Origin: Sinosporangium siamense
GTDB taxonomy: Bacteria; Actinomycetota; Actinomycetes; Streptosporangiales; Streptosporangiaceae
Reading direction: 5' to 3'
DNA length: 64,000 nucleotides
NCBI RefSeq assembly: GCF_016863435.1
Contig: NZ_BOOW01000027.1
Span: 1 to 64,000, forward strand
This document shows positions 24,238 to 34,840 of the stretch, piece by piece (position 1 is the stretch's first letter; every line of letters begins with the position of its first letter). Position numbers and translations under genes: made by a program. The notes under the pieces were generated by a model. It had not been told where the DNA came from. It worked only from the letters and a program-made list of their open reading frames with translations, and did not search any database.

Positions 24238-24375
24238 ACTGTTGTCGGGTGTAAAGGGTTTTTTGACGGCAAAGATCCTGATAGCCCTACTCTTGAGTGG
24301 TCTGTAGCAGGACTCATAGCCTTGGCCGGTGTTCTCCTGCGGACGCTCCGTACGGAAAGCGGGAGGTGGGCCCAG

Positions 24376-25365
24376 TTGCTGGTGGACTCGTTCGGCCGGG
24401 TGGCCACGGATCTGCGGGTGTCGCTCACCGACCGGTGCAACCTGCGGTGCAGCTATTGCATGCCACCCGAGGGCCTCGAATGGCTGCCGAAACCCGAGCT
24501 TCTGACCGGCGACGAGATCGTGCGCCTCGTCCGCATCGGCGTCGAACGGCTCGGCATCGCCGAAGTGCGCTTCACCGGCGGCGAACCCCTGCTCCGGCGT
24601 GAACTGGTCGACATCGTGTCCCGCTCCGCCGCGCTGACCCCCCGGCCCCACCTGTCGATCACCACGAACGGCATCGGCCTCGACCGCCTGGCCGCCCCCC
24701 TCACCGCGGCCGGGCTGGACCGCGTCAACGTCTCCCTCGACACCCTCGACCGCGACACCTTCGTCAAACTCGCCCACCGCGACCGCCTCCCCGACGTGCT
24801 CGCCGGCCTCGCCGCCGCCGACGCCGCCGGCCTGCGGCCGGTCAAGGTCAACAGCGTGCTCATGCGCGGCGTCAACGACCACGAGCCGGCGGCGCTCCTC
24901 GGCTATTGCCTGGAACGCGGCTACGAGCTGCGGTTCATCGAGCAGATGCCGCTCGACGCCCAGCACGGGTGGCGGCGCGACACCATGGTCACCGCCGACG
25001 AGATCCTGGCACACCTGCTCACCCGGTTCGACCTCGTGCCCGAGGACCCGGGCGAGCGCGGCAGCGCCCCCGCCGAGCGGTTCCTGGTGAACGGCGGCCC
25101 GGCGACCGTCGGGGTCATCGGATCGGTGACACGCCCCTTCTGCGGCAGCTGCGACCGGGTGCGCCTCACCGCCGACGGCCAGATCCGCAACTGCCTGTTC
25201 GCCACCGAGGAGTCCGACCTGCGCGCCGCGCTGCGCGGCGGCGCCTCCGACGACGAACTGGCCGAGCGCTGGGCCTCCGCCGTACGCGTCAAGAAGGCCG
25301 GCCACGGCATCGACGACCCGAGCTTCCTGCAGCCCGCCCGCCCCATGTCGGCCATCGGCGGCTGA
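24376..25365 (+). CDS. moaA: GTP 3',8-cyclase, molybdenum cofactor synthesis
   Basis: 329 residues, the normal MoaA length, if started at TTG 24376 (then VDSFGRVATDLR), 6 nt after AGGTGG. GTG 24382 is an alternative; the frame is open from 24322. Radical SAM enzyme converting GTP to cyclic dehydro-GTP, the first step of molybdopterin synthesis. The first [4Fe-4S] motif is CNLRCSYC (Cys21, 25, 28), the second is FCGSCDRVRL plus RNCLF near residue 255-275. It ends in Gly-Gly, which is required for activity in the family. mobA-like and DUF6457 genes lie downstream, but other moa genes are outside the window. Confidence 0.93.
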   Translation: MLVDSFGRVATDLRVSLTDRCNLRCSYCMPPEGLEWLPKPELLTGDEIVRLVRIGVERLGIAEVRFTGGEPLLRRELVDIVSRSAALTPRPHLSITTNGIGLDRLAAPLTAAGLDRVNVSLDTLDRDTFVKLAHRDRLPDVLAGLAAADAAGLRPVKVNSVLMRGVNDHEPAALLGYCLERGYELRFIEQMPLDAQHGWRRDTMVTADEILAHLLTRFDLVPEDPGERGSAPAERFLVNGGPATVGVIGSVTRPFCGSCDRVRLTADGQIRNCLFATEESDLRAALRGGASDDELAERWASAVRVKKAGHGIDDPSFLQPARPMSAIGG

Positions 25366-25687: not shown

Positions 25688-26317
25688 ATGGACGGCGGCA
25701 TGAGCACGGACATGGGTGCCGGCGCCCGCGCGTTTGACGCGGTCGTGCTCGCGGGAGGGCAGGCCAGGCGGCTGGACGGGCTGGACAAACCCGCGCAGGA
25801 GGTGGGGGGCCGGAGTCTGCTGGGGCGTGTGGTGTCGGCGCTGGCGGAGGCCGGGGCGCGGCGGGTCGTCGTGGTCGGGCCGCGCAGGGACCTGCCGGGA
25901 GCGGTCTTCGTCCGCGAGGACCCGCCGGGTGGCGGACCGGTGCCCGCGCTGCGGGCCGGGCTGGCCGAGGTCGAGGCCCCCTGCCTGGCGCTGTTCGCGG
26001 GAGATCTCCCCTTCCTGGTGCCGTGGATCGTCGCCGAACTGCTGAAAGCCGCTGAGAGCGCCTCTGGGGCCGTTCTGGTGGACAACGGGGGCCGAGAGCA
26101 GTGGCTGGCCGGTACGTGGCGCGTGGAGGCCCTCAGGGAGGCTCTGGCGGGATATGAGGGGGGCTCGCTCCGTGGCCTGCTCGGTCCACTCGGTCCGGTG
26201 CGCCTCGCCGTACCACCACGGCCCGACGGAGCGGACGTGTGGTTCGACTGCGACACAATGGACGACCTGCGCACGGCGCGGCGGCTGATCGCGCGCCGTG
26301 AGGGGGAGGACGCGTGA
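25688..26317 (+). CDS. mobA: MobA-like molybdenum cofactor guanylyltransferase
   Basis: 209 residues, nucleotidyltransferase (GT-A-like) fold. The nucleotide-binding signature is VVLAGGQARRLDGLDKPAQE (about 19-38; LAGGxxxRxxGxDK-type) and the metal/nucleotide segment LALFAGDLPFL (about 95-106). MobA links GMP to molybdopterin to give the MGD cofactor. The start at ATG 25688 leaves a short Gly-rich lead; earlier in-frame codons are low complexity. DUF6457 follows 22 bp downstream, a conserved actinobacterial pairing. 322 bp of GC-rich DNA separates it from moaA, so it may have its own promoter. Confidence 0.85.
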   Translation: MDGGMSTDMGAGARAFDAVVLAGGQARRLDGLDKPAQEVGGRSLLGRVVSALAEAGARRVVVVGPRRDLPGAVFVREDPPGGGPVPALRAGLAEVEAPCLALFAGDLPFLVPWIVAELLKAAESASGAVLVDNGGREQWLAGTWRVEALREALAGYEGGSLRGLLGPLGPVRLAVPPRPDGADVWFDCDTMDDLRTARRLIARREGEDA

Positions 26318-26339
26318 GAGCACAGGAAGGAGCGTCATC

Positions 26340-26585
26340 GTGAACGTGCTGGAGGAGTGGACGTCCACCGTGTGCCGCGAGCTCGGCATCGACCCGGCGT
26401 CCCTCGACCGGGACGAGGTGCTCGACCTCACCCGCGAGGTCGCCCACAACGTCGCGCGGCCCGCCGCCCCCCTCACGGTCTATCTGCTCGGGTTGGCGCG
26501 CGGCGCCGGAACCGGCCCTGAGGAGGCGGTGGCGCTCCTCACCCGCATGGCGCGCACTTTCAAGGCGCCGCCGGAAGAGGACTGA
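26340..26585 (+). CDS. DUF6457 domain protein
   Basis: 81 residues, all-alpha, no cysteines beyond one; begins MNVLEEWTSTVCRELGID. The LTREVAHNVARPAAPLTVYLLGLA stretch (about 28-51) is typical of DUF6457 proteins encoded next to mobA-like genes in actinobacteria. AGGAAGGAG (26323-26331) precedes the GTG by 8 nt. Likely an accessory factor in molybdenum-cofactor maturation; that is inferred from position only. Confidence 0.8.
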   Translation: MNVLEEWTSTVCRELGIDPASLDRDEVLDLTREVAHNVARPAAPLTVYLLGLARGAGTGPEEAVALLTRMARTFKAPPEED

Positions 26586-26602
26586 CGCCCGCGCCGTGAG
26601 TC

Positions 26603-26728
26603 GTGTTGCAGCTGGCGGGGGAGGACAGGCCCGACCTCGACGCGCCCGTCGAGAGATATCTCCCCGGCCTGGTGCGCGGCAACGGCAACGACGTCGGCGC
26701 GATCACGATGGGGGCGCGGCCGTGCTGA
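26603..26728 (+). pseudogene. Fragment of a serine hydrolase (DD-carboxypeptidase/beta-lactamase class C)
   Basis: This frame encodes 41 codons that read VLQLAGEDRPDLDAPVERYL followed by PGLVRGNGNDVGAITM. In intact serine hydrolases this exact pattern (VLQLVEEGKLxLDDPVExYLPGLVPxGxxITVRQLL) lies just after the S-x-x-K motif. Here it starts right after an in-frame TGA and ends in TGA after a few unrelated codons; SxxK and YxN regions are absent. It is therefore a decayed remnant. Confidence 0.7.
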
Positions 26729-26830
26729 AAAGTCCGATGAGCCGGAGAAATCGGAAAGATCCTGACTCGCTTCCTTGACTGAAGCGAGGGCGCAAATCGC
26801 ATGAAGTGCCGGGATGTCCGGAGGCGTCGC

Positions 26831-26948
26831 ATAAAAAGGCGACGCCGGGTGGTTACGGGGGCAAACCACCCGGCGCCGCGTCATCGGCGTTCCGACGGGG
26901 GCCCGGAACGCCGGCACCAGCGCCCCGACGGGGGACCAGGGCGCTTGC
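26831..26948 (-). ncRNA. Candidate small RNA with three C-rich-loop hairpins (6C-RNA-like)
   Basis: On the minus strand three hairpins follow each other: stem AGCGCCC/GGGCGCT (26945-26919), stem CGGCGTTCCG/CGGAACGCCG (26913-26885) and stem CCGGGTGGTT/AACCACCCGG (26873-26845). Their loops read TGGTCCCCCGTCG, GGCCCCCGT and TGCCCCCGT, so each exposes CCCCCGT. A run of five U follows 7 nt after the last stem, within the loop of a fourth hairpin (26846-26823). TTGACG (26984-26979) and TACGCT (26958-26953) upstream look like promoter boxes, although their 20-nt spacing is long. The layout recalls the actinobacterial 6C RNA, which has C-rich loops and a terminator. Each loop here has five C, and there are three hairpins rather than two. 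Confidence 0.5.
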
Positions 26949-26952
26949 CTAA

Positions 26953-26984
26953 AGCGTACACCTACTACCCATGGTGTGCGTCAA
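26953..26984 (-). promoter_or_regulatory. Putative promoter of the C-loop small RNA
   Basis: TTGACG at 26984-26979 and TACGCT (TANNNT) at 26958-26953, minus strand, directly downstream of the DUF3099 stop codon. The spacing of 20 nt is longer than the usual 17-18; TAGGTG at 26964-26959 (spacing 14) is a less likely -10. Confidence 0.35.
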
Positions 26985-26991
26985 GACTTAG

Positions 26992-27309
26992 TCACGACCC
27001 GATCTCACGTCGATGCCGTGGTATCTCGTTTTGGTTAGCTTCGGGTGTGTCAAAAGTCGGCGCAGGGGCACCTTTGCCCCGCTCGTTCGCCCCGATGACG
27101 GCAATGTATGGCAAAAAGATCGCACCAGCGATGAACAGGATCTTGTACGGCCAGGGGCCGGGCACGACAACGGCGAGAATCAGACAAAGGGTGCGAATGC
27201 CCATCTGAATCAGGTAGCGCTTCTCCCTGCGGCCGATGTCCTCGCTGAGAGAGGGCTGGGCATCGGTCACCGGATGCACGATCGCCTTTTTACGCCACAG
27301 CTTCACCAT
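26992..27309 (-). CDS. DUF3099 small membrane protein
   Basis: 105 residues, two membrane helices: MGIRTLCLILAVVVPGPW (about 36-53) and ILFIAGAIFLPYIAVIGAN (about 57-75), the DUF3099 pattern. The N-terminus is basic and the tail hydrophilic. Start is ambiguous: ATG 27309 has GGGGAGGAC upstream, but TAACGT (27318-27313) lies 6 nt before an in-frame GTG at 27306, which would suit a leaderless mRNA. Function unknown. Confidence 0.8.
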   Translation of the reverse strand: MVKLWRKKAIVHPVTDAQPSLSEDIGRREKRYLIQMGIRTLCLILAVVVPGPWPYKILFIAGAIFLPYIAVIGANERGKGAPAPTFDTPEANQNEIPRHRREIGS

Positions 27310-34477: not shown

Positions 34478-34840
34478 GATCCGGCCAGATTACCGTCTGG
34501 GCAGGGAGAACCTTCGATTACCCTGCCACGACCCGCTGATGTTGCCCCCCTCTGAACCGCTTTGCGGCACGCCGTAATCACCGTCCCACCGCGCGTGTCG
34601 ATCCCCGCACCCCTTACGGCACAGGGGGATCGGGCGCCCGCGCCACCGGAGGCGAGTGCGGCGGTGTGACATTGTGCACGCGCCCGGCGGGACCGGCCGC
34701 CTTGGCGGCGCCGTACGGGCCGCGGGGACCGGCCCCCGTGGTCTTTCATACGGGTAGGACTGGTGCGGGGTTGTGCATAACTCGTAGGAGATTGTCGGAT
34801 GCGTGAACGGCGAACGTAGTGCAGCCGTACGCTGTGGGGT
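34478..34840. other. Divergent intergenic region, no gene
   Basis: Two promoters bound it: TAATCT for the reductase (34492-34487, minus) and TACGCT for the phosphatase (34828-34833, plus), each near its start codon. GGCAGGG (34499-34505) and a downstream CCCTGCC form an inverted repeat near the reductase promoter. No protein-like frame is seen in the middle. Confidence 0.5.
34828..34833 (+). promoter_or_regulatory. -10 box for leaderless histidine-phosphatase mRNA
   Basis: TACGCT lies exactly 7 nt before the GTG at 34841, which fixes that start. Confidence 0.6.

Follow-up and report, generated by a model that had tools for sequence, protein, structure and literature searches.

On the minus strand of the stretch of Sinosporangium siamense DNA analysed here (the window, 64,000 nt), positions 26831-26984 carry three hairpins in tandem, each with a 9-nt loop that ends in CCCCCGT. 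The sequence bears out this arrangement, which had been described in the initial annotation, and the three-hairpin C-loop element is confirmed as real. Judged from its sequence, the element appears to have every feature expected of an uncatalogued small RNA that is distinct from the 6C RNA and is a variant of the C-loop sRNA kind. We think it probable, though well short of certain, that the element is transcribed independently, acts in trans as an sRNA by base-pairing of its loops with G-rich sites in mRNAs, and represents a family outside Rfam 15. The computations presented below establish its structure, the covariation of its stems, its conserved promoter boxes and terminator, its synteny, its presence as a single copy and its distinctness from 6C.

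Hairpin 1 (H1, 26919-26945) has a stem of 9 bp, of which one pair is G-U, and the loop GTCCCCCGT at 26936-26928. Hairpin 2 (H2, 26885-26913) has 10 bp and the loop GGCCCCCGT at 26903-26895, and hairpin 3 (H3, 26839-26879), the terminator stem, has 16 bp and the loop TGCCCCCGT at 26863-26855. Stems of 7, 10, and 10 bp had been proposed; this is correct for H2, but not for H1 and H3. Similarly, the U5 run proposed 3' of the last stem is present, at 26833-26837, but the proposed gap of 7 nt is a single C after the full 16-bp stem, giving a predicted intrinsic terminator. The small RNA is predicted to be about 115 nt long and would extend over 26833-26947 of the minus strand, with the 5' end placed from the -10 box. 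The minimum free energy of the element is -76.8 kcal/mol, compared with a mean of -56.8 kcal/mol for dinucleotide shuffles (z = -5.3), and 0 of 200 such shuffles matched its stability. The computed ensemble leaves the loop bases of H1, H2, and H3 largely unpaired, with mean unpaired probabilities of 0.75, 0.76, and 0.63, and the fold allows inner pairs within the C-loops. CCCCCGT occurs at 16 sites on the two strands of the window, and 5 of them cap a stem of at least 7 bp; three of these five are the H1-H3 loops, in the same register within a span of about 80 nt. The other two, at 34733 on the plus strand and 9144 on the minus strand, are single 7-bp hairpins that are probably due to chance.

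A -35 element, TTGACG, at 26984-26979 (inside TCTTGACG) and a -10 element, TACGCT, at 26958-26953, of the form TANNNT and preceded by GTG, lie upstream of H1 on the same strand, separated by 20 nt. Both boxes had been pointed out in the initial annotation, and they are conserved in relatives. The pattern TTGAC-N-spacer-GTG-TANNNT was detected in 34 of the 35 aligned sequences described below, with a spacer of 20 nt in 33 and of 21 nt in one. The 35th, L036, was missed by the script because the pattern required C or G ahead of GTG; it has AGTGTAGATT at the equivalent place, with identical boxes and an A in front of GTG. The stop codon of the upstream DUF3099 gene (26992-26994 in the window) precedes the -35 box by a few bases. 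We suggest that the element has its own SigA-type promoter, with the transcription start just before H1. Thus, the sequence seems to provide the promoter and terminator of its own that are expected of a trans-acting C-loop sRNA. The 20-nt spacer (26959-26978) is long for SigA. It contains an inverted repeat, ACACC...GGTGT, in the window; the left half is missing from some relatives, and many have a G run in place of the repeat.

A DNA match to the 166-nt region was found in 39 of the 60 genomes searched, own genome included; by count from the table, 35 of them belong to the window's family, in which only G010 and G029 of 37 genomes were missed. Some matches outside this family cover only a short length and could be chance hits (G049). 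The alignment contained 35 sequences, 34 from the window's family (own included) and one from G037, another member of the order; it excluded L037, which is from a different family, and L030, L038, L039, and L040, which are partial or weak. Over these 35 sequences, 99.8% of the cells of the three-hairpin structure are paired. The initial annotation had proposed examining stem covariation in related genomes, and it is clearly seen: 16 of 35 pairs show changes on both sides, against a mean of 5.5 in shuffled alignments, and 0 of 500 shuffles reach 16, the structure having been derived from one of the 35 aligned sequences. Versions of the structure slid along the alignment give only 0-3 pairs with both-side changes.

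The loops behave differently from the stems. The H1 loop GTCCCCCGT is kept in 30 of the 35 sequences, the H2 loop is GGCCCCCGT or AGCCCCCGT in 33, and the H3 loop TGCCCCCGT is kept in all 35; the exact 9-nt loop is present in 34, 34, and 35 rows for H1, H2, and H3, respectively. The pairs covary while the loops are nearly invariant, so that the stems have diverged through compensatory changes and the loops have scarcely diverged, as expected from the selection on the loop that had been proposed. The linkers between the hairpins vary by 1-4 nt between relatives. The modelled structure would expose a C-run in the loops of covarying stems, as is expected of a trans-acting C-loop sRNA.

How widely is the element distributed? 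Two models, R1 for the three hairpins and R2 for a two-hairpin core, were run against 394 sampled genomes of the class at E ≤ 0.001. R1 has matches in 86 of the 394, of which 41, with strong scores, are in the window's family (own included); the R1 table names matching genomes alone, and the 288 genomes without a match may include family members. The core alignment for R2 has 30 sequences and is 96.2% paired, and 19 of its 24 pairs changed on both sides, a number reached in 0 of 500 shuffles. R2 has matches in 143 of the 394 genomes, with one match per genome. In a sample of the phylum, 9 of 246 genomes match, and 9 of the 9 are in the class Actinomycetes, the share of this sample outside the class being unstated. 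Of the 102 R2 matches outside the family, 47 loci were fetched (27 already known from R1 and 20 more). A pattern scan of named genomes, which favours RNAs with two good C-loops, gave at least 118 stretches.

The element sits between the DUF3099 gene (PF11298, E = 8.4e-24; 26992-27309, minus strand), a conserved neighbour upstream on the same strand, and the convergent moaA genes. In the window, the latter are a MoaA-MobA-DUF6457 run on the plus strand, with the conserved neighbour MoaA (Mob_synth_C, Radical_SAM) at 24322-25365 and DUF6457 (PF20058), the last of the run, at 26298-26585. Twenty-eight of the 45 R1 matches outside the family were fetched, and 27 of these adjoin DUF3099, moaA or both. 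The exception, L086 (G400), was dropped as a chance match; it has no such neighbour gene, and G400 is absent from the R2 matches. Among the 20 further R2 loci (down to E = 6.7e-4), DUF3099 or moaA is adjoining in 18, and the other two, L302 and L303, adjoin dodecin, with tldD as well in L302. Since 27 of 28 R1 loci and 20 of 20 further R2 loci keep neighbours, synteny holds for 47 of the 48 loci fetched from outside the family. Weak R2 matches (E = 0.028 or worse) have the neighbour genes in 0 of 11 fetched loci and were taken as chance. Among the matches listed for the named genomes, 109 of 118 loci are flanked by DUF3099 (upstream, same strand), by a convergent moaA (downstream) or by both, and in 104 of the 118 the element follows a DUF3099 gene of the same orientation. 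Of the nine non-syntenic loci among those listed, five are from Nocardiopsis and Marinitenerispora, with dodecin or other neighbours. The remaining four (L115, L125, L168, and L215), without DUF3099 or moaA neighbours, look like chance matches.

The number of C-loop hairpins varies from one to three, and the C-loop is kept although the sequence around it varies. The third hairpin was seen by eye, among the fetched loci, only in the window's family, in G037 of the same order and in named relatives of that group. Among the matches listed, carriers of three hairpins include Nonomuraea, Microbispora, Actinomadura, Nocardiopsis, and Rhizohabitans, and carriers of two include Streptomyces, Kitasatospora, Streptacidiphilus, Embleya, and Motilibacter. 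The script called 25 three-hairpin loci among those listed, and 21 when a stem of at least 7 bp was required; in the four calls dropped, all from Streptomyces, a CCCCCG lies within the promoter. The closest named loci among those listed are from Nonomuraea, Microbispora, and Rhizohabitans, with 77-80% DNA identity over 3.7-4.8 kb. By eye, the part that is constant across families is the C-loop terminator hairpin, mostly with CCCCCGU, but with only four C in L075. A second C-loop hairpin is seen, also by eye, in Streptomyces and several families; its loops are deviant, without the GU after the C-run, in L072, L079, L289, and L290, and the hairpin lacks a C-run in, for example, L085, L091, L297, L299, L300, and L306. 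The Streptomyces-type loci have two hairpins with five and six C, and CCCCCGUCGG recurs in Streptomyces.

The two-hairpin loci also have a recognizable upstream region. An extended -10 element, TGN-CATACT, lies ahead of the first hairpin in 87 of the 93 two-hairpin named loci among those listed, these 93 being the 118 minus the 25 called three-hairpin by the script and still including the four chance matches. Upstream of the extended -10 in this version, which is mostly from Streptomyces (e.g., L100, L102, and L103), there is a direct repeat, CTCAAGAAAAGCTCAG, with an 11-bp step; it is at a constant distance from the extended -10 in 13 of 15 printed examples and absent from the other two. Of 89 named loci among the matches listed, 76 contain CTCA-N6..8-CTCA. 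The CTCAAGAAAAGCTCAG repeat looks like a response-regulator-type site.

No Rfam 15 family reaches its gathering cut-off in the whole window or in 18 homologous loci, and this includes the 6C family (RF01066, cut-off 47 bits). The initial annotation had proposed a search of the locus with the RF01066 model, and this found nothing within 26700-27100 even at E ≤ 10. The genome has its own 6C at G000:C25:5502-5577 (L041:1501-1576), with 60.8 bits, and R2 has no match on this 6C stretch of L041. The own-genome 6C is on another contig and has two C-runs of seven. Within the window's family, 6C matches at E ≤ 0.001 occur in 32 of 37 genomes, with scores above the cut-off in 30 of these 32; 30 genomes have both 6C and the C-loop RNA, at different places. 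One member of the family, G010, which is 99% complete, keeps 6C and has possibly lost the C-loop RNA; it gave no DNA match, and the best model match was only at E = 0.72. In the part of the literature available to us, 6C is defined by two stem-loops with at least six C in each (PMC8388888). The window instead has three hairpins with five C each, a difference from 6C that had been recognized at the outset and that holds against this definition. The element was therefore rejected as a member of 6C, given the lack of an RF01066 match at the locus and the separate locus of the genome's own 6C; of the two alternatives in the initial annotation, a 6C relative or a new C-loop RNA, the second is retained.

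The new RNA nevertheless resembles 6C (also called B11) in being a predicted actinobacterial small RNA with an independent gene, hairpins that expose C-runs and a terminator at the end. By analogy, the two probably share a way of working, through pairing of the C-loops with G-rich leaders. They differ in locus and sequence, with no covariance-model match either way and with both present in one genome, and in having two hairpins with at least six C (6C) or three, or one to two, C-loop hairpins, with CCCCCGU in the window's group (the new RNA). The top sub-threshold Rfam match is Scr3202 (RF02833), to H2 and H3, at 26.8 bits (E = 0.068); it was rejected, since the gathering score is 52 and the linker and loops differ. 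ncS035, ar7, and the other sub-threshold matches, all far under the cut-off, were also rejected. In the scanned Streptomyces-type loci of the new RNA, there is no Rfam match at gathering, RF02833 included.

Conserved, highly expressed Streptomyces sRNAs with C-rich loops, scr5583 and scr1434, are described in the accessible part of Moody et al. 2013 (PMC3765725). Compared by these descriptions only, they share the C-rich loops with the new RNA and are flanked by SCO5583 and SCO1434, in contrast to DUF3099-moaA here. We take SCO5583 and SCO1434 to be neither moaA nor DUF3099. The main texts of PMC3765725, PMC8388888, PMC8079986, PMC11678152, PMC4681348, PMC2422843, and PMC4895711 do not contain the word moaA and give no transcript from the DUF3099-moaA locus, but the sRNA may bear another name there. 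Among dozens of Streptomyces core intergenic regions, only 6C RNA and the glycine riboswitch had previously been identified, according to the portion of PMC11678152 available. Because just these two are listed there, the new RNA may be among the unnamed regions.

We propose the following mechanism. The SigA-type promoter would start the RNA just before H1, and H3 with the U-tract would end it. The three stems would be scaffolds that present one single-stranded module, (K)CCCCCGU. This module most likely pairs with G-rich mRNA stretches that resemble ACGGGGG(A/C), often near ribosome-binding sites, and the pairing would lower translation. The three copies of the module may give higher occupancy or allow one RNA to hold several sites. 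Transcription, action in trans, mRNA pairing and repression as the outcome are all steps that we infer. The computed energies of the 8-bp loop-target duplexes with ACGGGGGA and ACGGGGGC are -15.1 and -16.6 kcal/mol. For B11 (6C) of M. abscessus, the accessible text of PMC10470900 reports that either C-rich loop alone is enough to repress a G6-bearing leader, and that mutation of both loops abolishes this repression.

A search of the own genome for ACGGGGGA-N3..11-ATG gave 30 sites, compared with 14 for the reversed pattern, which is a weak control because it does not end in ATG. Twelve of the 30 sites were chosen as preceding a plausible gene; nine of these were scanned against Pfam, and six have a family. 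Two of the 30 candidate sites, L220 and L225, were traced in relatives. For the lipoprotein-like L220 gene, 10 of 46 genomes, the own one among them, contain a relative. G001 has lost the site, and the leaders of some distant relatives (L252, L255, and L257) are G-rich as judged by eye only, because the match starts inside the gene. The TctC-like L225 gene has relatives in 20 of the 46 genomes, again counting the own one; G001 retains the G-rich pair almost intact, L262, L263, L265, and L266 have a G-rich but imperfect version, and the pair is absent from L261 and L264. Thus, no conserved target was found among the two traced candidates; the remaining ones include the Ser/Thr-kinase candidates L232 and L239. 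Tandem ACGGGGG was found at 99 sites in 37 same-family genomes, compared with 84 for reversed controls, which we count as negative. In the own genome, ATG follows four of five tandem sites, and in 30 fetched loci, a plausible start lies behind only 4 of 35. L220, L224, L225, and L232 have, near position 1500, two ACGGGGG spaced 9-11 nt start to start just before ATG; the ORFs behind these four own-genome sites are lipoprotein-like, 154-aa, TctC-like and Ser/Thr-kinase, and there is no family-wide trend. Outside the family, G057 has 16 tandem ACGGGGG sites, some of them in overlapping arrays, compared with 2 reversed controls.

Could the conservation have another cause? A small coding sequence is extremely improbable: a 145-aa minus-strand ORF (26480-26917) does extend into H2 and H3, but the 1-4 nt linker differences would shift any frame, and paired columns change together. 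That the element is a divergent 6C RNA is suggested by its C-rich loops, its terminator hairpin and its actinobacterial host, but in view of the blank RF01066 and R2 searches and of the family genomes that hold both RNAs at different places, we consider it very unlikely. We also doubt strongly that the element is a mere terminator or 3'-end stabilizer of the DUF3099 mRNA, with no function in trans. In most fetched loci it does lie 3' of a DUF3099 gene with the same orientation, and H3 with the U-tract would make a strong terminator. However, a terminator requires neither an invariant loop nor two or three copies of it, and the conserved -35 and -10 boxes between the gene and the hairpins would be unneeded.

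The CsrB and RsmZ RNAs titrate a protein by means of repeated GGA loops. It is possible, if on the unlikely side, that the identical loops of the new RNA are similarly sites for an RNA-binding protein, which the RNA titrates or scaffolds. As in these sponges, an identical loop motif is carried on several unlike stems in variable copy number (one to three hairpins), although the motif is CCCCCGU rather than GGA. This motif, which is longer than the C-run, is kept on unlike stems in the window's group, where the exact 9-nt loop is nearly universal, and Streptomyces again has CCCCCGUCGG. In the window's group, the GU that follows the C-run is almost as constant as the C-run itself, which exceeds the need of simple C:G pairing; therefore, a protein partner is possible. 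On the other hand, families with a single C-loop would have poor sponges, the GU is missing from the hairpin-2 loops of some families, and a role in mRNA pairing has been reported for C-rich loops of this phylum, as far as the accessible part of PMC10470900 goes. A broader and more doubtful proposal is a class-wide modular RNA, in which the loop (K)CCCCCGU(CGG) would be read by an RNA-binding protein or a dedicated regulon, with the number of modules increasing from one to three along the lineages, as an actinobacterial counterpart of the Csr/Rsm sponge RNAs. Few RNA chaperones are known to us from actinobacteria. We favour the sRNA reading, in which the loops act in trans by pairing with G-rich sites on mRNAs.

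To our knowledge, little of the post-transcriptional control of actinobacteria has been mapped, and few widely conserved sRNAs of this group, 6C/B11 among them, have a reported mode of action. From Streptosporangiales to Streptomyces, the locus is constant and the C-loop is kept, while the stems and the copy number change. If our proposal is correct, the element would be a second, separate single-copy C-loop RNA, and presentation of C-loops would be a recurrent regulatory device in actinobacteria, one for which Streptomyces species may serve as genetically tractable hosts in testing the C-loop RNA.
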